A stretch of DNA of 64,000 bases, taken from NCBI GenBank assembly GCA_943789465.1, contig CALSUF010000003.1:186001-250000 (forward strand), written 5' to 3'. The notes under the pieces were generated by a model. It worked only from the letters and a program-made list of their open reading frames with translations. It was not told the origin of the DNA and did not search any database. A program made the translations under genes and the position numbers. Origin of the DNA: an uncultured Flavobacteriaceae bacterium (GTDB lineage Bacteria; Bacteroidota; Bacteroidia; Flavobacteriales; Flavobacteriaceae). Below are positions 19,360-41,557 of this stretch, one piece after another; position 1 is the first letter of the stretch; each line of letters begins with the position of its first letter.

Positions 19360-19662
19360 TTAGGCGACGTTTTCAGCTTCAAATTTCTGTATTTTTTCTA
19401 ACACATATTTTTTTTCGTCGCGTTCTTGCTCAATGTCAAAATCGTTTTGAATGCCCAACCAAAATTGAGCAGAGTTTCCAAAATATTTGCTCAAACGAAG
19501 TGCTGTATCCGCAGTAATTCGCCTTTTACCTTTTGTGATTTCTGATATTCGAGTTTGCGGAATTCCTAAGTCTTTTGAGAGTCGGTAGGCTGAAATATTT
19601 AAAGGCTCAAGAAACTCTGAGCGTAAAATTTCACCAGGATGAATATTTGCTAATTTTTCCAT
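19360..19662 (-). CDS. higA: HigA-type antitoxin (XRE HTH)
   Basis: A 100-residue antitoxin of the HigA/VapI family. HPGEILRSEFLEPLNISAYRLS and the helix-turn-helix GIPQTRISEITKGKRRITADTALRLSKYFG are characteristic, as is the following SAQFWLGIQNDFDIE. It neutralises HigB and usually represses the operon by binding near the promoter. It lies 11 nt downstream of the toxin gene, the toxin-first order of HigBA modules. The acidic C-terminus (IQKFEAENVA) is normal. Confidence 0.93.
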   Translation of the reverse strand: MEKLANIHPGEILRSEFLEPLNISAYRLSKDLGIPQTRISEITKGKRRITADTALRLSKYFGNSAQFWLGIQNDFDIEQERDEKKYVLEKIQKFEAENVA

Positions 19663-19673
19663 TGTACTGTTTT

Positions 19674-19955
19674 TTAATGATAATCAATAATTTCTACGTT
19701 GCTGGCATTTCCTATATTCCATTGGAAGATCACGCGCCATTGTTTATTAATTCGAATGCTATAAAATCCGTTTAAATTCCCTGTCAACTTTTCAAGTCGA
19801 TTCGATGGGGGAATGCGCAGGTCTATAATATCTGCCGAATTATGAAGCATTCTCAATTTTCGACGCCCCACATTTTGTATGTATAAAGGCATTTTTTTAA
19901 CTCGAATACCATTCCAAATGTGTTCGGTTTCTTTGGAGCCAAATGAAACAATCAT
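19674..19955 (-). CDS. higB: HigB-type toxin (RelE superfamily)
   Basis: A ribosome-dependent mRNA endonuclease of 93 residues by family knowledge. The start MIVSFGSKETEHIWNG matches other HigB proteins, as do LRMLHNSADIIDLRIPPSNR, GFYSIRINKQWRVIFQW and the C-terminal VEIIDYH. A longer read from an ATG at 19982 is unlikely: the promoter -7 box lies at 19980-19987, so transcription would begin inside those codons. The active-site Arg and aromatic residues of SIRINKQWR are intact, so the toxin should be functional. The module sits between the trp terminator and its own. Confidence 0.93.
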   Translation of the reverse strand: MIVSFGSKETEHIWNGIRVKKMPLYIQNVGRRKLRMLHNSADIIDLRIPPSNRLEKLTGNLNGFYSIRINKQWRVIFQWNIGNASNVEIIDYH

Positions 19956-19979
19956 AGTATTGTTTTCCGTTACTAACGT

Positions 19980-20009
19980 CAAAGGTAAGTATAAAAAGTA
20001 GAATCACAA
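19980..20009 (-). promoter_or_regulatory. higBA promoter
   Basis: On the minus strand TTG (20009-20007), a 19-nt spacer, then TACCTTTG (19987-19980): a full match to the Bacteroidota consensus. The TTG is the end of the T-run of the trp terminator, so the promoter begins where that terminator ends. It decides the higB start at 19955. Confidence 0.72.
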
Positions 20010-20062: not shown

Positions 20063-20830
20063 TTAACCGTTCAGTAAAGGTTCTGTAAACGCTCCCAAAT
20101 CATCCACCCCATGGGCAGTCACATAATTTATAAACGCACTACCAATAATTGCACCTTTTGCATATTGCGTGGCTTGACTAAAGGTCTCATGATCTGAAAT
20201 TCCAAACCCAATAACCTGTGGGTTGGTGAGTTTAAGGTCTGCAATACGCTTAAAATAATCCGTTTGAGTGTTTCCAAAACCACTCTGACTTCCTGTGGTG
20301 CTGGCACTGCTCACCATATAAATAAAGCCATCTGAGATACTATCCATATACCGAATGCGTGTTTCGCTGGTTTGAGGTGTAATCAAAAAGACATTGAGCA
20401 ATCCATACCGTTCAAAAATGGCTTTATATTCCTCGTGATAGACTTCTACCGGCAAGTCAGGAATGATCAATCCATCAATCCCTACCTCTTGGCATTTTTT
20501 ACAAAATGCTTCCACACCATATTGCAGCATTGGATTAAAATAGCCCATCAAAATCAAAGGAATAGACACTGATTTTCGAATGTCTTTTAGTTGATCAAAC
20601 AATACTGTTGAAGTCATGCCATTGTGTAAGGCCTGTGTAGAACTCGCTTGAATGGTGGGGCCATCCGCCAACGGATCGCTAAATGGCAACCCAATCTCAA
20701 TCATGTCAACACCATTTTTTTCTAAGTTTTCAATCGTTGTTACCGTGTCGTTTAAGTTGGGGTATCCCGCCGTAAAATAGATGGATAATAACTTCTTATC
20801 TTCTTGTAATTTTGCTTGTATTCGATTCAC
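20063..20830 (-). CDS. trpA: Tryptophan synthase alpha subunit
   Basis: Cleaves indole-3-glycerol phosphate to indole and glyceraldehyde 3-phosphate; indole is channelled to TrpB. The catalytic Glu lies in MIEIGLPFSDPLADGPTIQ and the phosphate-binding segments GFGISD and GAIIGSAF are present. I place the start at the GTG of VNRIQAKLQEDKKLL, 4 nt after the trpB stop, because the family begins there; the longer read from a TTG at 20854 would overlap trpB by 20 nt and adds nothing conserved. The resulting 255 residues are normal. It is the last gene of the operon, followed by a strong terminator. Confidence 0.95.
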   Translation of the reverse strand: MNRIQAKLQEDKKLLSIYFTAGYPNLNDTVTTIENLEKNGVDMIEIGLPFSDPLADGPTIQASSTQALHNGMTSTVLFDQLKDIRKSVSIPLILMGYFNPMLQYGVEAFCKKCQEVGIDGLIIPDLPVEVYHEEYKAIFERYGLLNVFLITPQTSETRIRYMDSISDGFIYMVSSASTTGSQSGFGNTQTDYFKRIADLKLTNPQVIGFGISDHETFSQATQYAKGAIIGSAFINYVTAHGVDDLGAFTEPLLNG

Positions 20831-20834
20831 AATC

Positions 20835-22016
20835 TTAGAGTTTAAAATAATCAATATAGGTATTCAAATCTTTGTCGCCACGCCCCGACAAACTAATCAC
20901 CACCACATCTTCAGGTTTGAATTTTTTATCTTCAAAAATAGCCAACGCATGAGAAGTTTCAATCGCCGGAATAATGCCTTCTAACTGCGATAATTCCAGT
21001 CCAGCTGTCATCGCCTCATCATCGGTCACCGAAATGAATTCTGCACGTTTGGTTTCATACAAATGCGCATGCATAGGACCAACGCCAGGATAATCTAAGC
21101 CTGCTGAAATAGAGTAAGGCTCTGTGATTTGTCCGTCCGTAGTTTGCATCAATAAGGTTTTACTCCCGTGAATCACCCCTTCTTTTCCAAGTACGGAAGT
21201 CGCGGCACTTTCGCCGGTATAAATCCCTTTCCCTGCTGCTTCCACTGCAATCAGTTTCACGTCGGGTTCATTCAAATAGTGGTAATAGGCACCAGCGGCA
21301 TTACTACCTCCACCCACACAAGCTACCACGTAGTCAGGGTTCTCGCGCCCTTCAACTTCTTTTAATTGCCATTTTGTTTCTTCGGAAACAACCGATTGAA
21401 AACGCGCCACCATATCAGGATAAGGGTGTGGTCCTACAGCACTTCCAATAATATAATGGGTATCCACAGGATTATTGATCCAATCGCGAATGGCTTCATT
21501 AGTAGCATCTTTTAGGGTACGACTTCCAGACAATGCTGGACGTACCTCTGCACCGAGCATTTTCATACGTGCTACATTAGGCGCTTGACGTGCGATGTCA
21601 ATTTCACCCATGTACACAATACATTCCAAACCTGCTAAAGCACAAACAGTTGCTGTAGCTACGCCATGCTGTCCAGCCCCAGTTTCAGCAATGATGCGCT
21701 TTTTTTTCAGTTTTTTCGCCATCAAAATTTGACCTATGGTGTTGTTGATTTTATGTGCCCCCGTATGGCATAAATCTTCACGTTTCAAGTATATTTTGGT
21801 ATTGTATTTTGCAGACAATCGTGTTGCGAAATACAATGGTGTTGGTCGGCCTACATAATCTTTCAAGAGTTGGTCGAACTCTTTTTTGAAATCAGGTTCT
21901 GCCATTACTTTCAAATACTTTTGACGTAATTCTTCGACATTAGGATATAACATTTCTGGAATAAATGCTCCTCCAAATTGGCCATAGTAGCCTTTTTCGT
22001 TTACGTGATAACTCAT
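20835..22016 (-). CDS. trpB: Tryptophan synthase beta subunit
   Basis: Condenses indole with L-serine to L-tryptophan using pyridoxal phosphate. The 393 residues are typical of TrpB1. The PLP lysine lies in [11 protein letters not shown], the phosphate loop in [11 protein letters not shown], and the catalytic Glu region in [11 protein letters not shown]. The C-terminal SLSGRGDKD motif is intact. It overlaps trpF by 4 nt (ATGA) and is followed at once by trpA, the usual order. Confidence 0.98.
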
Positions 22017-22627
22017 AATAAATGTTTAAATTTTTCTAAATTATTTTTATTTTTCTTAGCGGGTGCGTCTTCAAATTTACTATTCACATCCACCGCATGA
22101 CAGTAGGTTGCTGCCACACTTGTTTTAAATTCTTGTAATTGGTCTGCATTTTCTAATCCAATCCCGCCACTTAAAAAATAGGGTTTTGTTGAGGGGTAGT
22201 GTTCTAAAACAGACCAGTCAAAGCAGTACCCGTTTCCGCCAGCCAAAGGCCCTTTGGTATCAAATAGATAATAATCACAAACGGTTTCATATGGCGTTAG
22301 TATAGCAAAGTTAAACTCGTTTTTAATGGAGAATACTTTGATGACCTCTATATTGAGTGCTTGCAAAGATTTGCAAAATTCAGGCGTTTCTTTTCCGTGT
22401 AATTGAACCGCTTGCAAATTGTGGGTATTGATTTTTTCGACAATAGTATCATAAGAAGCATTCACAAAAACGCCTACTTTTTTTATGGTCAACGGAAGGG
22501 TAGGAGTCGATGCAGATACATGGCGTGACGAACCCCCAAAGAAGATAAAGCCCATATAGTCAGGTTGGATCGCAGCGATCAACTGAATATTATCATCATA
22601 GCGCATGCCACATACTTTTAGTTTCAT
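22013..22627 (-). CDS. trpF: Phosphoribosylanthranilate isomerase
   Basis: Amadori rearrangement of phosphoribosylanthranilate to CdRP. The 204-residue TIM barrel starts [14 protein letters not shown], with the catalytic Cys in KVCGM. The other catalytic residue, an Asp, is in [17 protein letters not shown], and the phosphate-binding end reads FLSGGIG and AVDVNSKFE. It overlaps trpC and trpB by 4 nt each, so all three are translationally coupled. The unusually lysine/asparagine-rich C-terminus ([16 protein letters not shown]) is as often seen in flavobacterial TrpF. Confidence 0.95.
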
Positions 22628-23412
22628 CCGTTCAATTGTTTTATAAATGCTGCAGCACTTGCTCCAGGATCATCTGTTTTCATAAAATTCTCACCAACTA
22701 AAAATCCTTTATAGTCAGACGGTTGTAAACTTTGAATATCTTCGACAGTACGAATCCCACTTTCTGAAATTTTCACAAAATCATCTGGAATAAGCGTACT
22801 GAGTTTTTTGCTCGTTTCTAGGCTGACTTCAAACGTTTTAAGGTTTCGGTTATTGACTCCAATCATATTGAGCGACGGCATCAGAGATTTGTGCAACTCC
22901 TCTTCATTATGAATTTCTAACAAGACTTCCATCCCTAAACTTTGAGCAAGGGTTGAGAAATTTTGAATTTCTTCACGGGTCAAAATGGCAGCAATGAGTA
23001 GAATGACGTCGGCGCCATATGCTTTTGCTTCCACAATTTGATAGGAATCAATAATGAATTCTTTTCGAAGTAAGGGCATGTTACAACTGGCTCTTGCCGT
23101 TAATAAGTCTTCTAAACTCCCACCAAAATATTTCATATCGGTTAATACCGACATTCCACAGGCACCTGCAGATTCGTAGCCTTGCGCCACATCCTGCACA
23201 TTCAAATTTTGATTGATACAGTCTTTTGATGGTGAACGGCGTTTGTGTTCTGTAATCAGTCCAGATGTGCTTTCTGTTAGTCGCGTACTCAAGGAGGGGC
23301 AGCGGCGGTCAAATAGCACAGATGTTTCCAGTTGATGTAATGGAATCAATTGTTTTCGAAGGGCAACTTCGAGGCGTTTGTCTGCTACAATACGATCTAA
23401 TATACTGCTCAT
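22624..23412 (-). CDS. trpC: Indole-3-glycerol phosphate synthase
   Basis: Closes the indole ring from CdRP with loss of CO2. The TIM barrel shows ITEHKRRSPSKDCIN (the catalytic Lys and Ser region), LLRKEFIIDSYQI, LLEIHNEEEL, IGVNNRNLKTFEV and KISESGIRT, all family signatures. I chose the ATG of MSSILDRIVADKRLEV, which overlaps the trpD stop by one base (TAATG), over an ATG nine codons upstream inside trpD. The resulting length is 262 residues. It is a separate gene here, not fused to trpF as in enterobacteria. Confidence 0.96.
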   Translation of the reverse strand: MSSILDRIVADKRLEVALRKQLIPLHQLETSVLFDRRCPSLSTRLTESTSGLITEHKRRSPSKDCINQNLNVQDVAQGYESAGACGMSVLTDMKYFGGSLEDLLTARASCNMPLLRKEFIIDSYQIVEAKAYGADVILLIAAILTREEIQNFSTLAQSLGMEVLLEIHNEEELHKSLMPSLNMIGVNNRNLKTFEVSLETSKKLSTLIPDDFVKISESGIRTVEDIQSLQPSDYKGFLVGENFMKTDDPGASAAAFIKQLNG

Positions 23413-24398
23413 TATAGGGCGATTAATTTGGTGAGACATTCATTTGCTTTTCCAGAATGGAGGGCTTCTTTGGCCAATTCATAACCTTCTACGTGAGCTA
23501 TTTTTTTAGCCGTCGCAATGGCGAGGCCAGCATTGGTACACACCACATTATTTTGTGCTTCTGTTCCATTTCCACTAATAATAGTTTTAAATATTTTTGA
23601 AGCGTCTGCCACTGAATTTCCCCCAAAAATAGCTTCTTGTGTGTTGTTTTGTAAACCTAAATCTTCCGAAGAAAATAGGACTTCCGAGTCATTAGATACG
23701 ATTTTAACGGAATTGGTTAATGAGATTTCATCATAGCCTCCAAGGTCATGAACAATACTATAATTTTTGTCTGTATCTTGATATAAATAACTATACAATC
23801 GTAATAATTCTAAGCTAAAGACCCCCACCATTTGATTTTTTGGAAAGGAAGGGTTTACCATAGGGCCTAACATATTAAAAAAGGTTTTGACTCCTAATTC
23901 GCGTCGGATAGGAGCTACGTTTTTCATGGCGGGATGAAACAATGGGGCGTGTAGTACGCAAATTCCAGTGGTAGCAATAGCACGTTCTAAAAAGTCTGTA
24001 TCGTTTGAAAATTTTACACCCAATGATTCTAAAACATTGGAAGATCCACAAGCAGAAGACACGCCATAATTGCCGTGTTTTGCGACCGGAACGCCTGCAG
24101 CGGCTGTAACAAAAGAGGAAAGTGTTGAGATATTAAACGTGTCTTTACCATCGCCACCTGTACCACATAAATCAATAGGGTTGTAGGCTGATAAATCCAC
24201 AGGAATACACAATTCTAATAATGCGTCTCTGAAACCTTTTAATTCTTCAAGAGTTACTGTTCGCATCATAAAAATAGTCAGAAATGCTGCAATTTGACTT
24301 TGATTATAATCGCCTTTGGAGATGTTAATCAAAATCTGCTTTGCTTCTTCAGAAGATATTGTTTCGTGGTTAATGAGTCTATTTAAAACGTGTTTCAT
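23412..24398 (-). CDS. trpD: Anthranilate phosphoribosyltransferase
   Basis: Transfers phosphoribose from PRPP to anthranilate. The 328-residue protein has an N-terminal helical part and the type III phosphoribosyltransferase motifs DLCGTGGDGKDTFNIST, KHGNYGVSSACGSSNVLE and NVAPIRRELGVKTFFNMLGPM. It is separate from trpG, 21 nt downstream of it. Length and motifs are normal. Confidence 0.97.
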   Translation of the reverse strand: MKHVLNRLINHETISSEEAKQILINISKGDYNQSQIAAFLTIFMMRTVTLEELKGFRDALLELCIPVDLSAYNPIDLCGTGGDGKDTFNISTLSSFVTAAAGVPVAKHGNYGVSSACGSSNVLESLGVKFSNDTDFLERAIATTGICVLHAPLFHPAMKNVAPIRRELGVKTFFNMLGPMVNPSFPKNQMVGVFSLELLRLYSYLYQDTDKNYSIVHDLGGYDEISLTNSVKIVSNDSEVLFSSEDLGLQNNTQEAIFGGNSVADASKIFKTIISGNGTEAQNNVVCTNAGLAIATAKKIAHVEGYELAKEALHSGKANECLTKLIAL

Positions 24399-24419: not shown

Positions 24420-24986
24420 TTAGGAATTAATCCAGTTTTCTAAGAGTTGTTTTCCGTTGGGTGTGAGTACCGATTCTGGGTGAAACTGAACTCCTTTTAC
24501 ATCAAATATTTTATGTCTTAAAGACATAATTTGTCCATTTTCATCTATTGATGTAGCTTCTAAAACTTCTGGTAAATTTGCATCAACCACCCAAGAATGG
24601 TAGCGACCAACCTCAATAGTTTTGTCCATGCCATTAAATAGTGGTTCATCGTCAACACAAATAGTAATGTCGGTATGGACCCCGTGATAAACTTCCTCTA
24701 AATTTATAATTTTTCCACCAAATACTTCGCCTATTGCTTGTTGTCCCAAACAAACGCCAAGGATACTTTTAGTGGATGCATATCGCTGAATCACCGCTTT
24801 TAATAAGCCAGCTTCGTCAGGGATTCCTGGACCTGGAGAAAGTACGATTTTGTCGAAATGTTGGATGTCTTCAATTTCAAATTTATCATTCCGCAAGACT
24901 GTAACATCACAGTCCAAATCTTCTAGGTAATGGACTAAATTAAATGTAAAACTATCGTAGTTGTCAATGACTAATATCTTCTTCAT
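24420..24986 (-). CDS. trpG: Anthranilate synthase glutaminase component
   Basis: Supplies ammonia from glutamine to TrpE. It is a 188-residue class I glutamine amidotransferase with the catalytic Cys in GVCLGQQAIGE and the His-Glu pair in VQFHPESVLT. The N-terminus ILVIDNYDSFTFNLVHYLE is diagnostic. It lies 3 nt after trpE, consistent with a 1:1 complex. In some bacteria the same subunit serves PabB; no pabB is in this window. Confidence 0.97.
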   Translation of the reverse strand: MKKILVIDNYDSFTFNLVHYLEDLDCDVTVLRNDKFEIEDIQHFDKIVLSPGPGIPDEAGLLKAVIQRYASTKSILGVCLGQQAIGEVFGGKIINLEEVYHGVHTDITICVDDEPLFNGMDKTIEVGRYHSWVVDANLPEVLEATSIDENGQIMSLRHKIFDVKGVQFHPESVLTPNGKQLLENWINS

Positions 24987-24989
24987 GTT

Positions 24990-26390
24990 CTAAATGTTTT
25001 CGGCGAGTTTTATCGCTTTGGTTAAGGCGCCTAATTTATTATATACTTCTTGAAGTTCGTTTTCGGGACTTGATTTGGAAACAATTCCTGCACCAGCTTG
25101 CCAATGGAGTTGGTAGTTTTTACTCAAAAAGGTTCGAATCATGATGGCATGGTTGTAGTTTCCATCAAAATCCATAAATCCAATAGCACCACCATAAAAG
25201 GCACGGCTTGTTTTTTCGTAGGTTTCAATAAGTTCCATCGCTTTGTATTTGGGTGCGCCACTTAAGGTGCCCGCAGGAAAGGTATCGGCTACAATTTGCA
25301 TTGTTGGGGTGCCTTTTCTTACCTTACCCATCACTTTACTTACCAAATGAATAACGTGTGAAAAAAATTGAACTTCTCTGTATTTTTTGACATATACGTC
25401 TGTGCAATGACGACTTAAGTCGTTTCGAGCCAGGTCAACTAACATGACATGTTCACTATTTTCTTTTTTATCGGCGACTAATTTTTTTGCTAATTCGGCA
25501 TCTTTCAAATCATCGCCAGTACGAGCAAAGGTTCCAGCAATAGGGTGAATTTCTGCATTTTGATCTTGTACAACCAGCTGGGCTTCGGGTGAACTTCCAA
25601 AAATTTTAAATTTTCCGTAATCAAAATAAAAAAGATAAGGGGAGGGGTTGATACTTCTCAATGCTCGATATACGTTAAAATCATCTCCTTTAAAATCTTG
25701 TTGAAATTTTTTAGATAATACCAATTGGAATACATCGCCGCGAGCACAGTGTTTTTTAGCGAGTTCAACATTCGATTTGAATTCTTCGTCGCTCAAGTTG
25801 GAGCTAATGTCTCCTTTAGATTCAAAATTATAAGATGAAAAACTTTGTACTTTAATCAAATGATCAATGGCATCAATATTGCTTTCGGATTCGTAACAAT
25901 GTGCAAAAATATAGGCTTCATTTTTGAAGTGATTAATGGCGATGATATTTTGATAAACAGCATAATACATCTCTGGGATTTCAATGGAATCGTCCTTTTT
26001 TGAGATGGTGATATCTTCAAAGTATTTTACAGCATCATAAGCTGTAAACCCAAACATCCCATTATTTATAAACTTAAACGAGGTGTCTTTTTGGGTTTCA
26101 AATTGTTTTGTAAATGTATCAATTTCGGACGTCACTATATCTGAAGTTACAGTTGTGGTGTTGACGGTTTGATCAGGATATGTTTTAGTAATCAAATTGG
26201 CGTCTACTTTGATAGATGCTATAGGATTGCAGCAAATGTAAGAGAAGCTGTTGTCATTGCCGTGATAGTCGCTGCTTTCTAAGAGGATGCTATTCGGAAA
26301 CTTATCTCTGATTTTTAGATACACACTCACTGGCGATATAGTATCAGCGAGTATTTTTTTGTAATGTGTTTTTAATTCAAATTTTTTCAT
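24990..26390 (-). CDS. trpE: Anthranilate synthase component I
   Basis: Makes anthranilate from chorismate with ammonia from TrpG. The 466-residue chorismate-binding enzyme carries HPIAGTFARTG, ENSEHVMLVDLARNDL, FPAGTLSGAPKYKAMELI and YGGAIGFMDFDGN. The N-terminal LLESSDYHGNDNSFSYI includes the LLES motif that in TrpE proteins is part of the tryptophan feedback site, so allosteric inhibition is likely. The ATG follows directly after the T-run of the attenuator, with no ribosome-binding site between. It is the first structural gene of the operon. Confidence 0.97.
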   Translation of the reverse strand: MKKFELKTHYKKILADTISPVSVYLKIRDKFPNSILLESSDYHGNDNSFSYICCNPIASIKVDANLITKTYPDQTVNTTTVTSDIVTSEIDTFTKQFETQKDTSFKFINNGMFGFTAYDAVKYFEDITISKKDDSIEIPEMYYAVYQNIIAINHFKNEAYIFAHCYESESNIDAIDHLIKVQSFSSYNFESKGDISSNLSDEEFKSNVELAKKHCARGDVFQLVLSKKFQQDFKGDDFNVYRALRSINPSPYLFYFDYGKFKIFGSSPEAQLVVQDQNAEIHPIAGTFARTGDDLKDAELAKKLVADKKENSEHVMLVDLARNDLSRHCTDVYVKKYREVQFFSHVIHLVSKVMGKVRKGTPTMQIVADTFPAGTLSGAPKYKAMELIETYEKTSRAFYGGAIGFMDFDGNYNHAIMIRTFLSKNYQLHWQAGAGIVSKSSPENELQEVYNKLGALTKAIKLAENI

Positions 26391-26419
26391 AAAAAAAGGC
26401 TTGTCGTGATGACAAGCCT
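26391..26419 (-). terminator. trp attenuator terminator hairpin
   Basis: On the minus strand AGGCTTGTC (26419-26411), a 5-nt loop, GACAAGCCT (26405-26397), then Ts to 26391. The stem is a perfect 9 bp. The T-run touches the trpE ATG. With the Trp-rich leader peptide just upstream it forms a ribosome-mediated attenuator. Confidence 0.85.
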
Positions 26420-26450
26420 AGATATTTTAATTTAAACATACAGGGGTGTA

Positions 26451-26507
26451 TCACGAGTTTTTTTTTCGAGAGTACCACCACCAAGTATTATTTAAAGAAA
26501 GGTTCAT
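26451..26507 (-). CDS. trpL: trp operon leader peptide
   Basis: A short reading frame on the minus strand encodes MNLSLNNTWWWYSRKKNS, with three consecutive TGG codons at positions 9-11. The stop lies 31 nt before the terminator hairpin. Ribosome stalling at the Trp codons when charged tRNA-Trp is scarce would change folding of the leader and let polymerase read into trpE. The antiterminator partner is not obvious; a weak pairing of ACACCCC (just after the stop) with GGCTTGT of the hairpin is possible. The peptide is too short for ordinary gene calling. Three Trp in 18 residues right before trpE is very unlikely by chance. Confidence 0.85.
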   Translation of the reverse strand: MNLSLNNTWWWYSRKKNS

Positions 26508-26525
26508 AATTTAGTTATTAAAAAT

Positions 26526-26550
26526 CAAATGTAGCAACGATTTTTATGAT
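26526..26550 (-). promoter_or_regulatory. Candidate trp promoter (two -7 boxes)
   Basis: On the minus strand TAATTTTG (26550-26543) and TACATTTG (26533-26526) both fit TAnnTTTG. The second leaves about 13 nt before the leader-peptide ATG. A TTG at the right distance is missing for both, so which is used is open. Confidence 0.5.
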
Positions 26551-26573
26551 TGCAAAATTAATTTAATAGTTTT

Positions 26574-27140
26574 TTAAAATTTTAAAGAAACCTTTAAATC
26601 AAACTCATTATAGATGGCTTTATCCTTTAATCCATCAAAAAAACTAGCAGATCCGTATTTGATTCCAAATTTAGTACGGTCTATTTGGAAGGTCGTTGTT
26701 GCAGTATCATCTGAAACGGTTAAATCAAAAGTGATTTTATTTGTGATTCCTTTGATCGTAAGGTCTCCAACAACAGCGTAGTTTGCTTCGTTTTTGCTAA
26801 CCGAAGTAAAAACTAAAGTTGCTTTTTGATGTTTTTTGACTCCAAAAAAGTCATTTGCTTTTAAATGACCATCTAATTTATTTTTGTAATCCCCTTCAAG
26901 ATCGGTGGTGTTGATAGAGGTCATATCCATTACAAAATTTCCTCCAGTCAATTGATCTCCATTGAATTCAAGCGTACCTTCACGAAGTGTAATCGTTCCT
27001 TCATGTTGTCCTGTTACTTTGTATCCGACCCAGTTAATAATACTTTGTTCAGTATCTACTTGTTTTTTTTCTGTGGCAGTAAATGCTGTAAGTGCTAAAA
27101 CAAACAAAAGGGCAAATAATTTTGATATTGTATTTTTCAT
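26574..27140 (-). CDS. YceI family protein
   Basis: A secreted or periplasmic lipocalin-like protein of 188 residues. A signal peptide (ISKLFALLFVLALTAFTATE) precedes the YceI domain: STINWVGYKVTGQHEGTITL-like start, GGNFVMDMTSINTTDLEG, LKANDFFGVKKHQKATLVF and GDLTIKGITNKITFDLTV are family hallmarks. YceI proteins bind long-chain isoprenoids such as polyprenyl quinones. It ends 66 nt before the trp leader peptide but is not functionally related. Confidence 0.95.
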   Translation of the reverse strand: MKNTISKLFALLFVLALTAFTATEKKQVDTEQSIINWVGYKVTGQHEGTITLREGTLEFNGDQLTGGNFVMDMTSINTTDLEGDYKNKLDGHLKANDFFGVKKHQKATLVFTSVSKNEANYAVVGDLTIKGITNKITFDLTVSDDTATTTFQIDRTKFGIKYGSASFFDGLKDKAIYNEFDLKVSLKF

Positions 27141-33270: not shown

Positions 33271-36200
33271 TGGTGGCGTATACCAATGTATAGTTACTGA
33301 TGATGATGGTTCTGTAACATCTTCTACATCAACAGTTACCGTCAATAGTCTACCAACGATAGGTATTACGGGAAACCTCATTATATGTGAAGGTCAAACA
33401 ACGACTTTAACTGCTAGTGGAGCTTTAAAATACGATTGGGGTAGTGGTTTTACAAATGTAGCGGCATTTGATGTAACGCCATCTGCAACTTCAAACTATG
33501 TTGTCATTGGAGAGGATTCAAACGGCTGTGTAGCCTCTAATTCTGTTCAAGTTCAAGTGAGTCCATTACCAGCAGCGTCAATAACGTCAAATGCATCTGT
33601 GTGTTCTGGGGCAGATGCTCAATTTATAATTACAGGAACTCCAAATGCAGTAGTAACCTATAAATTAAATTCAGGAGTTGATACAGATGCAACGTTGAAT
33701 AATTCAGGAACTTTTAGTGTCACGATCCCAACGGCTTTATCAGATCAAACACTTAGCTTAATTAAAGTTGCTAATTCAACTTGTGAAACAATTTTATCAG
33801 CCTCTGAGACTGTGTTAGTCAACCCTATTCCTGCAATGCCCGCAGTTTCTAGCCCAATAACGTATTGCCAAGATGACATTGCAATAGCTCTTTCCGCAAC
33901 AGGAACGGATTTAAAATGGTATTTAGCTTCAACGAGCGGAGCACCATTATCTGAAGCGCCCACTCCAGAAACTTCAAACCCTGGAGAATTTTTATATTAT
34001 GTGAGCCAAACAATAAACGGATGTGAAAGTCCAAGAGCTGAAGTTAAAGTTCAAGTTAATGTCATTCCTTTAATTTCAATTTCTGGAAGTGATACGATTT
34101 GTCTTGGAGAATCTACAACCCTTAATGCAGCAGGAGCTATTTCTTATGTTTGGAGCCCAGGCGGTGAGACGACTTCGACAATAACGGTTTCTCCAACTTC
34201 CAATACAATATATTCCGTTACTGGAACCGATGCAGATGGTTGTTCCAGTTCTGAAACCCTAACAGTTATTGTAAACGCTGTGCCAACAGCTAGTTTAAGT
34301 GTTTCAGGTCCAATTTGCTCAGGAGATGATGCCCTATTTTCGATCACAGGTTCGGCAAATGCAACAGTGGTTTATTCAATTGATTCTGGTGCTGATCAGT
34401 CCGTGGTACTAGATAGCAGCGGTTTGGCTAGCATTTCAGAAACTAATCAAGTCTCCGATGTTGAAATGCGTCTTGTTTCGGTCAATAACGCGGAGTGTAC
34501 GGTTGCACTGTCAGATTTGGAAACCATAACTGTGAATCCCAACGCTACTGCCCCTGCAGTAAACAGCCCTATCGAGTATTGCTTAAATGAAACGGCTACA
34601 GCGTTAACAGCAGCATTTAATACTGGAAATAGTTTAGTTTGGTATGATTTTGATGGGACACAGTTGCCCTCATCGCCTACTCCCCAAACTTCAAATGCAG
34701 AATCTCTCACTTATGAAGTGAGTCAAATTAATGCCTTCGGATGTGAGAGTCCACGTTCTCAAATTACAGTTATTGTAAAACCATTACCACAAGCACCTTC
34801 TGTAGTTGCGTCTGAAGTTAATTTGTGTTTAAATGAAGCTGCATCCCCTTTAGATACTTCAGGAATTTCGAATCCACGGTGGTATGATGCACCGACAGCA
34901 GGAAATTTTCTAGGAACTACACTGACCCCAGTCACAACTTCTCTTGCGACTACTGATTTTTACGTGAGTCAGACTATTGATGGTTGCGAAGGTCCACGTA
35001 CACAAGTTGATGTGATTGTAAATTCAGTACCAAGTGCTCCAGCAGTACCATCTACTTCCGTTTTTTATTGTAAAAATGATACAGCAACTCCTTTAACAGC
35101 GATTACTTCAACAAGTGGAACTTTAAATTGGTATTTAGTTGCTTCTGGTGGTATTGGATCCCTAACTCCTCCTAGTATAGATACTAATGCAGTCGGAACA
35201 AACACCTATTATGTGAGTGAAACAAATAATTTAGGGTGTGAGAGTTTACGAACAGCAATCACAGTAACTATTGATGATATTCCTTCGACACCAACTGTTG
35301 GGTTAGTCACAAATCCGAGCTGTTCATCCTCTACTGGAAGCGTAGAATTATCTAATTTGCCGGCAGGAAACTGGACAGTAACCAACATTACAAATGGCAC
35401 AACCTATTCTAATTCTGGATCAAATCCATATACAGTAAGTGGTTTAAATTCTGGAACATATACATTTTCAGTTTCTAATGGTACTTGTGAGTCCCTAGCA
35501 ACAAATTCGGTCACTATCAATCCAATTCCAGTTCAGTCTGCACCTGTTGTCGGAACACTTGTTCAGCCTTCGTGTACAACATCTACAGGCTCAGTAACTT
35601 TAACGGACTTACCTTCAACAGGAAATTGGACCTTAACTAGAGTCAGTGATAATGTTTCGATAACAGACTCAGGTACAATTCGAACAATTTCTGGACTTCC
35701 TTCTGGAACCCATAATTATACAGTAACAAATTCTCAAGGCTGTACTTCTGTCGCGTCTCTAAATATAGTTATAGATGCCCAACCAACACTTCCAAATGCA
35801 CCCATTGCGAATGCGCAATCATTTTTAGAATCGGATTCAGCTACGATTTCAAATTTACAAATATCGAGCTCTGGATCTCCAGTTTGGTACAATCAAGCAG
35901 TATCCGGAACTCAAATTGCGAGCACTTTTACTTTAGTTACCGGAGATTATTTTGCGGCACAAATTGATACTAGTGGTTGTGAAAGTGTAAATAGAACAAC
36001 CGTTTCGGTTACTATTTTTCCGACTTCGGTTGGTGGAAGTGTTTCTGGAACCACAACAGTTTGTAGTGGAACAAATTCTACTGTATTGACTTTGTCAGGT
36101 CATACAGGAAGCATTATCAGATGGGAATCCTCTCCTGTAGTAGATTTTTCATCGGGAGTTATAGCAATAAGCAATGTTAGTACTACCTATACAGTCACAA

Positions 36201-39200
36201 ATACCACATCAGATATTTATTATAGAGCCGTGTTGCAAAGTGGTTCAGCTCCTGAAGAGTTTTCAACGCCTGCATTTGTGCAAGTTTCTCAACCTAGTAA
36301 TGGAGGTGTTCTTACAGCAACCAATTCATCAATTTGTGAAAATAATGTTGGAGGAGTCATCAATTTAGCTTTTGAAGTTGGGACAATTATCCAATGGCAA
36401 GAATCAACTGATAATGGAGCAAGTTGGTCGACTATCTTTAATACAATCAATAGTTATTCGGTTCCTGTATTGACCCAAACTACTATATTCAGAGCAGAAG
36501 TTCAAAACGGTAGCTGCCCCCCTTCATTTTCTAATGAGGTGGAGATTGTTGTGAATCCTGCGCCTTCTATTACCGCCATCCCAAACCAACTTAAGTGTTT
36601 AGGAGATACCGATACTTATGGGGAAGCTTTTATAGCAAACCATTCTTATGCTTGGTATACAAATTTGGGCGGGAGTCCAACAGTTCCTTTTAGTACCCTT
36701 AACCAGGTTACTCTTAATTTCGATCAAGAAACGACACAAGTTTTTACTTACAGAATTACAAACGACACTACGAATTGTTTTATAGAAGAGACTTTTGAAA
36801 TCGTCACTGACCCCTTGCCAATTGCTCAAGTCATTTCGGATGCATCAATTTGTGAATTTGACTCTATTAACGTAGGAGCCGCTTCGGTTCTAGGACATAC
36901 GTATAATTGGAGTAGTATCCCTGTTGGATTTACATCAACGTCTTCAAACCCATTGGTAACACCAACAGTAACAACAACTTATATTTTAACTGAAACTACA
37001 CCAAACGGCTGTACTGAAACAAATCAGGTAGTTGTGACCATGCAGCCAGAACCTGTAATTTCCATTACTAATGGCCCTGCTTTTGATATTTGTGAAACAC
37101 CATCGACGTCCATTCAACTCCAATCAACTGTAACAAATTTTGATACCTCAACTATAGTCTGGTCTAACGATGTTGGCTCTGGAGATTTTAGCGATCCGAA
37201 TATTTTAAACCCAACTTATACGCCAAGTGCTGCTGATATTTCAACTGGGTTTGCAACGTTAAGACTCACAGTCACTGGATTAGGGCCCTGTACACAAACC
37301 TACTCAGATACAATTACCATTAATATAGACGCGATTCCTACTGCAAATGCAGGTTCAGATGTTATTACATGTGGTACAGACCCTGTAACTCTAGATGCTA
37401 CGGGGACTTTAAATGCAGCGTCTTTAGTATGGACATTACCCTCAGGAATTACAGGAACTTTAAACTTAGGAGATCCCTACAACCCTGTTTTTACACCAAG
37501 TATTGCCGATATAAGTTACGTTGGACCTATTACGCTTACTCTAGAAGCGTTTTCTGGAAATACATGTCCAAGTACAATAGATACAGTTGATATTCTTATT
37601 ACTCCACCTCCAATTGTTGATATTGCACCTATAGAGGCTAACATTTGTGACGGTTCTAATTACACATTTTCACCAGGTCAAGTAGCGGTAACGAATGGAG
37701 TGCCAGGTACATATGCTTGGACTCGATCCGGAGATGGAACGTTTACGTCTACAAATTCTTTAACGACTACATATATCCCTGGGGCATCTGATATTTTAAA
37801 TGGTACGGTTACCTTGACGCTTACGGCTTCAGGAAATAGCCCTTGTTCAGCTCCAGTTACAGATGATTTAATTTTAAATATTATAAAAGCACCGATCGTC
37901 GATGCAGGCCCTGACAGTTTAGCTTGTGAAGGTCCGATAAACATTGTTGGCGCTGCGATTCAAAATGCAGGTTCCATATTATGGACGGTTGATCCTGGAA
38001 CAGGAAACGGATTTTTTATTGATCCCACGGTTCAAAATCCAATTTATGTTCCTGCTGCGACCGATTTAAATTCTACTGTGACTCTTCTTGTAAATGTCAC
38101 GCCTATGAACGCCTGTGGTCCAGATGTTCAAGATTCTGTGCTCTACACAATTAATGCAGCACCAACTGCTGTGGCGGGTGGCGATGCGACCATTTGTGAA
38201 AGCAATAACACCTATCAATTACAATCAACGGTAGCAAATGAAAATTTAATTACTTGGACTTCAACAGGATCAGGTAGTTTTGATAATGTAAATACCGAAG
38301 ATCCTATTTATACACTCAGCCCAGGAGATAAAATTAATGGATCGGTCAGTTTTACGGTTACAGGAACTCAAGCAGGTTGTGCAGCTGCTTCCGATACAAT
38401 GGTTTTGACCATTCAAAAAAATCCGATCGCCAATGCGGGGACGACATTGCAAATTTGTGAAGGTGAGTCTGTTACAATTAGTGCAGCAACCGCACAGTTT
38501 TCAAATACAACCAATTGGACCCAAAGTGGTGGTTTAGGAACTTTTATAAATACCTCTACTTTAGCCCCTACCTATAATTCTGCTTTAGGCGAGTCCGGTA
38601 CTGTTAATTTGACTTTAACAGCAGATGCGATTGCTCCATGTACAGTGCCTTCTACATCCCAAACAGAAATCATAATTACTGCGAAACCACAAGTTGATGC
38701 CGGTACTGATGCTCAAATATGTGAAGGCGACTCTTATACGATTAACTCAGCGACCAATACAAATACTGCTGGATTAATATGGACTACCAATGGTAACGGT
38801 ACGTTTCAACCAGGTTCCGAATTAACATTAACACCAACCTATATCCCTGGTTCTTTTGATATAAATTTAGGGACAGTCACCCTTACGCTTACGGGACTAG
38901 AAAACTTTCCTTGTAATGCAGCTGCTGAAGATTCAATGGTTCTGACAATCAACAAGATACCGGAAATTACGTTTATTAATCCAAATGTAGATTTGTGTGT
39001 GGATACTCCCAATTTTCCAATTGCTAATATTGTTTTAGATCACTACGATACCTTGTTATGGGAAACCTCAGGAACCGGTAATTTTGGAGGTTTGGAAACG
39101 ACCGAAACACCAACGTATTTTCCAACCCCTGCCGATTATGAACTTGGTGTGGTGACACTGACATTAACCGCTTCAAGAACGCCTTTAAATTGTAATTCTT

Positions 39201-41557
39201 CAACACAAGACACAATTACACTTAATTTTATTGAAAAACCAACGGTAGATGCGGGGCCGCCAATTGTAAGTTTATGTGAAGGCGCACTTGCTCCGTCTTC
39301 TTATGTAACAGATCAAGCGACCGCTATAGATTATTCAACGCTTACTTGGTCTTCTAATGGTAGTGGAACTTGGTCAACAGCAAATCCAAACAATTTATTA
39401 GAAACGTATACGCCATCCCCAGCAGATTACGACACAGGCTTTGTTATTCTTACGCTAGAAGCCAACTCAAATGCGCCCTGTACAGATTTAGTAACGGATA
39501 CGATTCAACTTGATTTACAAAAACTTCCAGTCATCACCGTTCCGGCGACAACGTCCATTTGTATTGACCAAAATACCTTTGGTATTGGTGGAGTATCCAT
39601 TGCACCAGCTACGGCTTACGATCCAAATTCCATTGTTTGGGAAACAACAGGTACAGGAGTTTTTACCACTTCTGGTGATCCGTTGAACCCAATTTATAAC
39701 CCGTCTAATTCTGATTTGGCGACTGGTGGTGTTACCTTAACAATCACTGTCGATTCAGTTTTACCATGTGCAATTGAGGTGACCGAAAGTTTCGATCTTT
39801 TATTTCAGGTTCTTCCTGTTGCCGATGCGGGTGTTGACTTAACAGAGTGTGATTTGCCATTTCAAATCACTACGGCTACTTTTGATACAACAACAGTTAA
39901 TAATTTAGTTTGGTCCAATGGATCAGGAGATGGATCCTTTGATCTTGACAATATTATAAGTCCAATTTATACCCCTGGAACAGGAGATTTAGCTAACGGA
40001 TCGGTAACCTTAACTTTAACCGCCACAGCCTTAGATCCATGTACGGCCGATGAAGTCACTTCAATGGTTGTCTCTTTTGTAGATTCACCAACGGTTGTAG
40101 TGGTAACGCCACAAGCTCCAATTTGTGAGGATGAAACTAATGTTGCAGTCGTAGGTACTACGATTACCGATGCAGATTCCTTTATTTGGACGTCAACAAC
40201 AGGTACTGGAACAACTATTGCAAATCCTACGACTTTGAATCCGTTAGTGACCCCTAGTGCTACAGATATAATTAATGAATTTATTGATTTAACCCTAACA
40301 GTAACTCCAAACGCACCATGTGGTGCCGCTGTTGTGGAAGTGGTTCGAATCCCTGTTCAGGAAAAACCTGAATTATTTCCAGGCGTTTCTCAAAATATTT
40401 GTGAAGGTGCGATTATATCCACCGCAGACGCAACAGAAACCAATGTTACGAATCTTGTTTGGTCCAATAATGGAGGAGATGGTACTTTTACAGCATCTAT
40501 CAATAACATTACCACTGAATATACACCTGGTCCCAATGAAATTGCAAATGGCTTAGTTGAATTAGTAGTTACTGCAGACGCAATTGCACCATGTGTTGGA
40601 ACAATTTCGGAGTTAGTTACTCACACCATTACAAGGGATCCAGTTGTCACTCTAACAACAAACGAAGACACAATTTGTGAATCACAAGGAAGTTATACAA
40701 TCCCAACAGGAACGATTTCTATAGAAAATATAAGTTCTGTAGACACTTTTGCTTGGACATCTTCTGGTTCGGGTACATTATTAGGTGCTAATACCTTAAC
40801 TCCAACTTATGAACCTTCATCAGCGGATATTGGGACTAGTTTTGTGAATTTAATTTTTACGTTAAATCCTACAGCGCCATGTAGCACTCAAATTATTGAA
40901 ACATTTAAGTTAAATATTGATCCCTTAGCGACTATCGATTTTACGGATGATGGTTTTTTCTGTGAGGGAATCGACAAACCTTTAACAGCGACTTTTACCA
41001 ACCATGATCCTAGTTCAATCAATTGGACAATTATTAATGGAACAGGTACATTAACAGGTGGAAACACTGCCAGCCCAACCTATGAGCCTGGTGCTGATAG
41101 TGACACTGTTGTGATACAAATTAGTGTGGACGGAATCACACCTTGCGATGAACCTACCACGGAACAATTTACTATGAATGTGATTAAAACTCCTGTAGTG
41201 TCTATAACGACTCTTACGGATGTAGTTTGTAGTTCAGAATCGACTTATGATTTAACAGGTAACGCTGTTGAGGATCCGACAAATATATTAAGTTGGACGC
41301 GCGTAACTCCAACAGGAACGGGAACGTTTTCAAACCCAACTGATCTAAATCCTTCTTATACATTTAATGCAGCAGATGTTGCAAATGGCTTTGTGACCTT
41401 ACGTTTAACCGCAACAAGCGCAGCGCCTTGTTCTTCTTCTGATTTTGAAGAAATTACAATCACAATAGATCAAGCGCCAACAGCAACCATTAGTTCTCTT
41501 AGGAGCTGTTTGTGCCGGAGAATCCTATACCGCGACAGCTCTCAACCTGGATGGTAA
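33254..41557 (+). CDS. Adhesin segment 2: Ig-like and PKD-like repeats
   Basis: The second frame restores the broken Ig-like domain (STTATDGGVYQCIVTDDDGS) and encodes about 2,750 residues. The first part has Ig-like units alternating with units of the type NPIPAMPAVSSPITYCQDDIA ... WYLASTSG ... YYVSQTINGCESPR (about eight of these, each near 85 residues). From about 37050 the PKD-like units begin. The frame has no upstream start or signal peptide, so as it stands it would not be exported. It ends at 41557, 54 nt after the next frame change. Confidence 0.8.
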   Translation, partial: STTATDGGVYQCIVTDDDGSVTSSTSTVTVNSLPTIGITGNLIICEGQTTTLTASGALKYDWGSGFTNVAAFDVTPSATSNYVVIGEDSNGCVASNSVQVQVSPLPAASITSNASVCSGADAQFIITGTPNAVVTYKLNSGVDTDATLNNSGTFSVTIPTALSDQTLSLIKVANSTCETILSASETVLVNPIPAMPAVSSPITYCQDDIAIALSATGTDLKWYLASTSGAPLSEAPTPETSNPGEFLYYVSQTINGCESPRAEVKVQVNVIPLISISGSDTICLGESTTLNAAGAISYVWSPGGETTSTITVSPTSNTIYSVTGTDADGCSSSETLTVIVNAVPTASLSVSGPICSGDDALFSITGSANATVVYSIDSGADQSVVLDSSGLASISETNQVSDVEMRLVSVNNAECTVALSDLETITVNPNATAPAVNSPIEYCLNETATALTAAFNTGNSLVWYDFDGTQLPSSPTPQTSNAESLTYEVSQINAFGCESPRSQITVIVKPLPQAPSVVASEVNLCLNEAASPLDTSGISNPRWYDAPTAGNFLGTTLTPVTTSLATTDFYVSQTIDGCEGPRTQVDVIVNSVPSAPAVPSTSVFYCKNDTATPLTAITSTSGTLNWYLVASGGIGSLTPPSIDTNAVGTNTYYVSETNNLGCESLRTAITVTIDDIPSTPTVGLVTNPSCSSSTGSVELSNLPAGNWTVTNITNGTTYSNSGSNPYTVSGLNSGTYTFSVSNGTCESLATNSVTINPIPVQSAPVVGTLVQPSCTTSTGSVTLTDLPSTGNWTLTRVSDNVSITDSGTIRTISGLPSGTHNYTVTNSQGCTSVASLNIVIDAQPTLPNAPIANAQSFLESDSATISNLQISSSGSPVWYNQAVSGTQIASTFTLVTGDYFAAQIDTSGCESVNRTTVSVTIFPTSVGGSVSGTTTVCSGTNSTVLTLSGHTGSIIRWESSPVVDFSSGVIAISNVSTTYTVTNTTSDIYYRAVLQSGSAPEEFSTPAFVQVSQPSNGGVLTATNSSICENNVGGVINLAFEVGTIIQWQESTDNGASWSTIFNTINSYSVPVLTQTTIFRAEVQNGSCPPSFSNEVEIVVNPAPSITAIPNQLKCLGDTDTYGEAFIANHSYAWYTNLGGSPTVPFSTLNQVTLNFDQETTQVFTYRITNDTTNCFIEETFEIVTDPLPIAQVISDASICEFDSINVGAASVLGHTYNWSSIPVGFTSTSSNPLVTPTVTTTYILTETTPNGCTETNQVVVTMQPEPVISITNGPAFDICETPSTSIQLQSTVTNFDTSTIVWSNDVGSGDFSDPNILNPTYTPSAADISTGFATLRLTVTGLGPCTQTYSDTITINIDAIPTANAGSDVITCGTDPVTLDATGTLNAASLVWTLPSGITGTLNLGDPYNPVFTPSIADISYVGPITLTLEAFSGNTCPSTIDTVDILITPPPIVDIAPIEANICDGSNYTFSPGQVAVTNGVPGTYAWTRSGDGTFTSTNSLTTTYIPGASDILNGTVTLTLTASGNSPCSAPVTDDLILNIIKAPIVDAGPDSLACEGPINIVGAAIQNAGSILWTVDPGTGNGFFIDPTVQNPIYVPAATDLNSTVTLLVNVTPMNACGPDVQDSVLYTINAAPTAVAGGDATICESNNTYQLQSTVANENLITWTSTGSGSFDNVNTEDPIYTLSPGDKINGSVSFTVTGTQAGCAAASDTMVLTIQKNPIANAGTTLQICEGESVTISAATAQFSNTTNWTQSGGLGTFINTSTLAPTYNSALGESGTVNLTLTADAIAPCTVPSTSQTEIIITAKPQVDAGTDAQICEGDSYTINSATNTNTAGLIWTTNGNGTFQPGSELTLTPTYIPGSFDINLGTVTLTLTGLENFPCNAAAEDSMVLTINKIPEITFINPNVDLCVDTPNFPIANIVLDHYDTLLWETSGTGNFGGLETTETPTYFPTPADYELGVVTLTLTASRTPLNCNSSTQDTITLNFIEKPTVDAGPPIVSLCEGALAPSSYVTDQATAIDYSTLTWSSNGSGTWSTANPNNLLETYTPSPADYDTGFVILTLEANSNAPCTDLVTDTIQLDLQKLPVITVPATTSICIDQNTFGIGGVSIAPATAYDPNSIVWETTGTGVFTTSGDPLNPIYNPSNSDLATGGVTLTITVDSVLPCAIEVTESFDLLFQVLPVADAGVDLTECDLPFQITTATFDTTTVNNLVWSNGSGDGSFDLDNIISPIYTPGTGDLANGSVTLTLTATALDPCTADEVTSMVVSFVDSPTVVVVTPQAPICEDETNVAVVGTTITDADSFIWTSTTGTGTTIANPTTLNPLVTPSATDIINEFIDLTLTVTPNAPCGAAVVEVVRIPVQEKPELFPGVSQNICEGAIISTADATETNVTNLVWSNNGGDGTFTASINNITTEYTPGPNEIANGLVELVVTADAIAPCVGTISELVTHTITRDPVVTLTTNEDTICESQGSYTIPTGTISIENISSVDTFAWTSSGSGTLLGANTLTPTYEPSSADIGTSFVNLIFTLNPTAPCSTQIIETFKLNIDPLATIDFTDDGFFCEGIDKPLTATFTNHDPSSINWTIINGTGTLTGGNTASPTYEPGADSDTVVIQISVDGITPCDEPTTEQFTMNVIKTPVVSITTLTDVVCSSESTYDLTGNAVEDPTNILSWTRVTPTGTGTFSNPTDLNPSYTFNAADVANGFVTLRLTATSAAPCSSSDFEEITITIDQAPTATISSLRSCLCRRILYRDSSQPGW

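Follow-up and report, generated by a model that had tools for sequence, protein, structure and literature searches.

The window, by which we mean the whole 64-kb stretch of DNA that was analyzed, comes from an organism whose nearest relatives are Formosa-type Flavobacteriaceae. It carries the tryptophan operon trpEGDCFBA on the reverse strand, with genes assigned by the Pfam families given in parentheses.

24990..26390, reverse strand: trpE, anthranilate synthase component I, first gene of the operon (PF04715 and PF00425)
24420..24986, reverse strand: trpG (PF00117)
23412..24398, reverse strand: trpD (PF00591)
22624..23439, reverse strand: trpC (PF00218)
22013..22627, reverse strand: trpF (PF00697)
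20835..22016, reverse strand: trpB (PF00291; identity from position together with Pfam family)
20063..20854, reverse strand: trpA (PF00290)

Directly 3' of trpA, positions 19360-19982 of the same strand encode a HigB-like toxin (PF05015) and an HTH antitoxin-like protein (PF01381), which are possibly cotranscribed with the trp operon. Elsewhere in the window, the forward strand holds a very long repetitive ORF at 33557-41557 (2666 aa, GTG start, possibly longer or frame-shifted), the product of which appears to be a cell-surface protein containing numerous Ig-like repeats.

The region upstream of trpE contains the features listed below, in the order in which they would be transcribed. Segments are numbered by their alternative pairings, 1:2, 2:3, and 3:4.

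26553..26555, reverse strand: TTG, the -33 element of a predicted promoter of the form TTG-N19-TACATTTG
26526..26533, reverse strand: -7 element TACATTTG of the Bacteroidota sigma-A type TAnnTTTG, from the consensus match and from relatives
26451..26507, reverse strand: leader peptide ORF of 18 aa, MNLSLNNTWWWYSRKKNS, plus TGA stop (ORF ATGAACCTTTCTTTAAATAATACTTGGTGGTGGTACTCTCGAAAAAAAAACTCGTGA), supported by the leaders of relatives
26475..26483, reverse strand: three consecutive Trp codons (TGG), the predicted regulatory stall codons, which also form the 5' half of segment 1
26466..26471, reverse strand: inner half of segment 1, UCUCGA (Ser-Arg codons), pairing with UCGUGA with one U-U mismatch in the MFE fold
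26447..26456, reverse strand: segment 2, UCGUGAU.ACA, comprising the last leader codon, the stop codon, and the next 4 nt
26445..26448, reverse strand: CACC, pairing with GGUGG of the Trp codons as the outer part of the 1:2 stem in the MFE fold
26391..26419, reverse strand: intrinsic terminator (3:4) with a 9-bp stem, a 5-nt loop, and a U-run reaching the trpE start codon, from folding and conservation
26419-26411, reverse strand: terminator 5' arm, AGGCTTGTC
26410-26406, reverse strand: terminator loop, ATCAC
26405-26397, reverse strand: terminator 3' arm, GACAAGCCT, followed by T's to 26391
26404..26414, reverse strand: segment 3, UGUCAUCACGA, comprising the inner terminator 5' arm, the loop, and the first two bases of the 3' arm

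The first-pass annotation of this DNA had described an 18-residue leader peptide with TGG-TGG-TGG, a perfect 9-bp hairpin, and a T-run before trpE, a description that proved exact to the base. The T-run adjoins the trpE ATG at 26390, and the leader is the sole short ORF with a WWW run in the window on either strand. An ORF running from ATG through WWW to a stop codon, 8-40 codons in length, did not arise once in 20,000 dinucleotide shuffles of the 200 nt 5' of trpE. Furthermore, the RNA comprising leader and terminator folds at -30.3 kcal/mol as compared to -15.8 ± 2.95 kcal/mol for shuffled sequences (z = -4.9).

Conservation of the leader, terminator, and promoter

Relatives were chosen by their TrpE protein in order to avoid selection by the leader feature itself. 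A search of 149 genomes from this bacterial family gave 134 TrpE matches, from which 130 trpE upstream regions were extracted; all counts include the window itself. Two of the records (L163 and L236) are titled Rhodobacteraceae, yet their TrpE is 86-94% identical to this flavobacterial TrpE, which suggests that these assemblies are mislabelled or contaminated. Upstream regions were scanned, up to a limit of 360 nt, for a short ATG-started ORF containing a run of two or more Trp codons.

Conservation in relatives had been set beforehand as the test that could overturn the first-pass reading, and the finding clearly survives it. An ATG leader with two adjacent Trp codons is present in 124 of the 130 regions, 110 of these 124 have three, and the hairpin with its T-run is found in 121/124. 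The WWW run and UCGUGA are retained in relatives at 87-94% TrpE identity where other bases have changed. The six regions in which a leader was not detected reflect either limits of the script or unusual cases. The leader ORFs of L052 and L063 apparently use TTG rather than ATG as the start codon, and L124 has the WWW run and the terminator with no ATG-started short ORF. In L084, the leader lies beyond the 360-nt limit, with the Rfam match ∼416 nt upstream of trpE; in L037, the terminator is distant, about 288-290 nt upstream of trpE; and the region extracted for L040 ends at the Trp run, just before WWW.

The terminator stem shows compensatory changes among relatives (CUUGUC/GACAAG, CCUGUC/GACAGG, and CUUAUC/GAUAAG), and in the divergent relatives L152, L153, and L161 (G042) the stems are wholly different. 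One alternative is that the leader controls translation of trpE, instead of or besides its transcription, with the 3:4 hairpin hiding the start codon until stalling opens it. In the window, 6 nt separate the hairpin from the trpE start codon and the U-run adjoins the ATG, and structure near a start codon could matter in a phylum described as not relying on Shine-Dalgarno sequences (PMC9723704). However, among relatives the hairpin lies at very different distances from the trpE start, up to 104 nt and to ∼290 nt in L037, while the T-run is kept, and we regard control of translation as very unlikely.

The relatives also bear on whether the peptide acts beyond the leader. The residues preceding the Trp run are partly conserved, with Thr in 85/110 and Asn in 71/110 and with some synonymous codon changes, and a role in trans has been reported for a trp leader peptide of Sinorhizobium (PMC7298713). 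A peptide or terminated leader RNA that also acts in trans, like peTrpL of Sinorhizobium meliloti, would leave attenuation only part of the role. Against this, the N-terminal part of the leader peptide varies among relatives, and the preference for AAT, ACT, and TTA codons may reflect A+T bias or constraints on the RNA. We therefore hold a trans-acting leader to be very unlikely.

The predicted promoter is likewise conserved. It agrees with the Bacteroidota sigma-A consensus TTG-N19-TAnnTTTG as described in two reports (PMC9723704, PMC7366714). In 122/124 relatives, the 150 nt preceding the leader ATG include a TAnnTTTG box, and the bipartite TTG-N18-20-TAnnTTTG was found upstream of the leader in 104/124, as compared to 0.5 in mononucleotide shuffles. 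The gap between the end of the -7 box and the leader ATG is 4-22 nt in nearly all relatives, with a median of 12 and a peak at 4-5. A gap as short as 4-5 nt occurs in 28 of the 122 relatives; in the window, the interval runs from 26526 to 26507 on the reverse strand. Based on this proximity, a very short 5' UTR is predicted.

Relation to the Bacteroid-trp family

At gathering thresholds, no curated Rfam family matches the window. In a search with a permissive E-value, RF01692 (Bacteroid-trp) was the sole significant match at the leader, spanning 26411-26527 of the reverse strand over the full-length model (positions 1-131) with 43.9 bits and an E-value of 4.6e-4. The gathering threshold of RF01692 is 49 bits, and a relative of the same genus, at 46.7 bits, misses it as well. 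RF01692 was detected in 130/149 genomes of the same family, 94 of them above the cut-off. Since orthologous regions score above the cut-off in these 94 of 149 family genomes, we assign the window to RF01692 by homology and synteny. Across the phylum, only 16/148 genomes had a match at E ≤ 0.01, and 15 of the 16 were from the same family; among 14 control genomes, a match was present in Bacteroides ihuae only. Two traits of RF01692 are found here, namely a run of Trp codons in a short ORF that precedes trp biosynthesis genes and an occurrence within Bacteroidota, RF01692 being present in the same family.

The first-pass annotation took the peptide to be probably unannotated; the element as such is not unrecognised, as it matches RF01692, and the literature already compares the RF01692 element with the E. 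coli trp leader. The Bacteroid-trp motif was published in 2010 by Weinberg et al. (PMC2864571). A 2019 paper places it before the trp operon of Flavobacterium psychrophilum and compares it with the E. coli attenuator (PMC6414381), and a 2021 transcriptome of F. psychrophilum speaks of strong clues of leader-peptide attenuation at amino acid operons (PMC9723704). In the open-access literature, we found no direct experimental or mutational proof of attenuation in Bacteroidota.

The Rfam results also address the idea that the Trp codons are incidental and that tryptophan is sensed independently of the leader peptide, as by the Trp riboswitches, T-boxes, TRAP-like proteins, or repressors that serve trp genes in other phyla. 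The lack of any curated Rfam match at gathering thresholds, with RF01692 the sole significant match at the leader, argues against it, as does the presence of in-frame Trp codons in nearly all 130 relatives at a fixed distance to segment 2. Sensing of this kind is, in our judgment, exceedingly improbable.

Competing folds in silico and a predicted 2:3 antiterminator

The sequence features and their conservation are accompanied by competing folds, in which segment 2 can partner either segment 1, as a protector, or segment 3, as an antiterminator. In the MFE folds of 117/121 relatives, at least three bases of segment 2 are paired upstream in the 1:2 stem, and a species-swap control gave 0/500 for this pairing. 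In the 2:3 antiterminator, UCGUGAU.ACA pairs with UGU.AUCACGA in segment 3, leaving a bulged C. The first-pass annotation missed this antiterminator, without which the structure would not be a switch.

Support for the 2:3 helix comes from a whole-helix test and a few divergent cases, and the relatedness of the sequences inflates tests of this kind. The mean whole-helix score was 16.78 as compared to a maximum of 16.32 in 200 species swaps and 11.2 in shuffles, and sliding the pairing by 1-3 positions lowered it from 78% to 20-51%. The helix covaries in places, with AUCACGA/UCGUGAU in the window and UUCACGA/UCGUGAA in most relatives, and with AUUGCGACA/UGUCGCAAU in L137 and CUGAAUCC/GGAUUCAG in L161. 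In the latter, segments 2 and 3 have changed in concert, which amounts to a natural compensatory experiment. A column-by-column swap test of the 2:3 core gave no covariation signal (0.783 versus 0.785 in swaps) because the core hardly varies.

The position of segment 2 follows the Trp codons. In 103/121 relatives, the distance from the last Trp codon to the start of segment 2 is 18-19 nt. Relative to the leader stop codon, segment 2 lies anywhere from ∼12 nt before to 10 nt after; thus the stop codon wanders by ∼20 nt, unlike the spacing between segment 2 and the Trp codons. Known ribosome footprints imply that stalling at the Trp run should bury segment 1 while segment 2 stays exposed, and a fixed spacing of 18-19 nt is what this would demand.

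For the window, masking the RNA as far as 6-12 nt beyond the final Trp codon made the antiterminator the best fold, at -17.8 kcal/mol. At equilibrium, this compares with -14.7 kcal/mol for the terminator, which wins when segment 2 is covered. Equilibrium folding was rejected as a general test of switching, as the complete terminator was more stable in 117/121 relatives even with segment 1 masked. In those relatives, the switch must therefore be kinetic and set during transcription. For this reason, folding was examined instead in nascent RNAs whose 3' arm was still unfinished. When the Trp codons were masked and the 3' arm was limited to its first 2-5 nt, the antiterminator was obtained in 121/121 relatives, whereas antiterminator-like pairing appeared in 26-48% of controls with shuffled spacers; median fold energies were about -12 and -7 kcal/mol, respectively. 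These in silico folds are consistent with a mutually exclusive antiterminator that stalling would free.

Proposed mechanism and comparison with known systems

The leader ORF has a run of cognate codons, and an intrinsic terminator lies between it and the first gene. With the compensatory changes in the terminator, the antiterminator, and the position before trpEGDCFBA, the in-frame Trp codons support the ribosome-mediated Trp attenuator that the first-pass annotation had proposed. Our reading, to which we give a probability of about 0.93, is that the element is a ribosome-mediated attenuator of trpEGDCFBA in a Formosa-like marine flavobacterium and a member of RF01692 by homology and position. 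It very probably works like the textbook attenuator of the E. coli trp operon.

The start site, termination, ribosome stalling, and tryptophan response that we infer would operate as follows. Transcription would begin just upstream of the 18-codon leader, from the predicted promoter. When charged tRNA-Trp is plentiful, the ribosome would pass the three Trp codons and reach the stop codon; since the latter is inside segment 2 (UCGUGA), segment 2 would be covered, the 3:4 hairpin would form, and RNA polymerase would halt at the U-run ahead of trpE. With uncharged tRNA-Trp, the ribosome would stall at the Trp codons and cover segment 1, segment 2 would pair with segment 3, and with the terminator blocked trpE would be transcribed. 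Without translation, the 1:2 stem would form and termination would again be permitted.

More tentatively, and at somewhat below even odds, the leader may constitute a complete 1:2:3:4 switch in which segment 2 is coding, holds the leader stop codon, and lies 18-19 nt from the last Trp codon, and in which the leader is translated from a very short 5' end devoid of a Shine-Dalgarno sequence. If true, attenuation in this phylum would operate with near-leaderless initiation and in a timing regime unlike that of E. coli. The principle is textbook and the link of the element to attenuation is already in print; the additions made here, the antiterminator, the stall-site geometry, and the promoter, are all computational. 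They provide the catalogued, experimentally thin Bacteroid-trp with an explicit antiterminator model and a geometry backed by 121 relatives. Attenuation in Flavobacteriaceae is thereby made directly testable, and genome annotators could add a leader gene and a regulatory feature that in this case escape the Rfam cut-off.

The leader shares with Bacteroid-trp its location before the trp operon, the Trp-run leader, the 1:2 stem, and the AGGCUUGUC 5' arm. It differs in its score below the cut-off, and the RF01692 model ends at the terminator 5' arm, so that the complete terminator and the 2:3 antiterminator lie outside the model. The trp leader of F. psychrophilum belongs to the same bacterial family and a different species, and the portions of its two reports that were seen describe no mutational test of that leader (PMC6414381, PMC9723704). 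Rfam Trp_leader, the enterobacterial family, gave no match up to an E-value of 5 in 26300-26700; with no sequence homology detectable by the covariance-model test, the two would be similar in their working and are not homologues by that test. The E. coli trpL leader and the leader described here have in common a short ORF with Trp codons, alternative 1:2, 2:3, and 3:4 stems, and a U-run terminator before trpE. In contrast to trpL, the window has three UGG codons instead of two, a stop codon inside segment 2, and a promoter of the Bacteroidota type.
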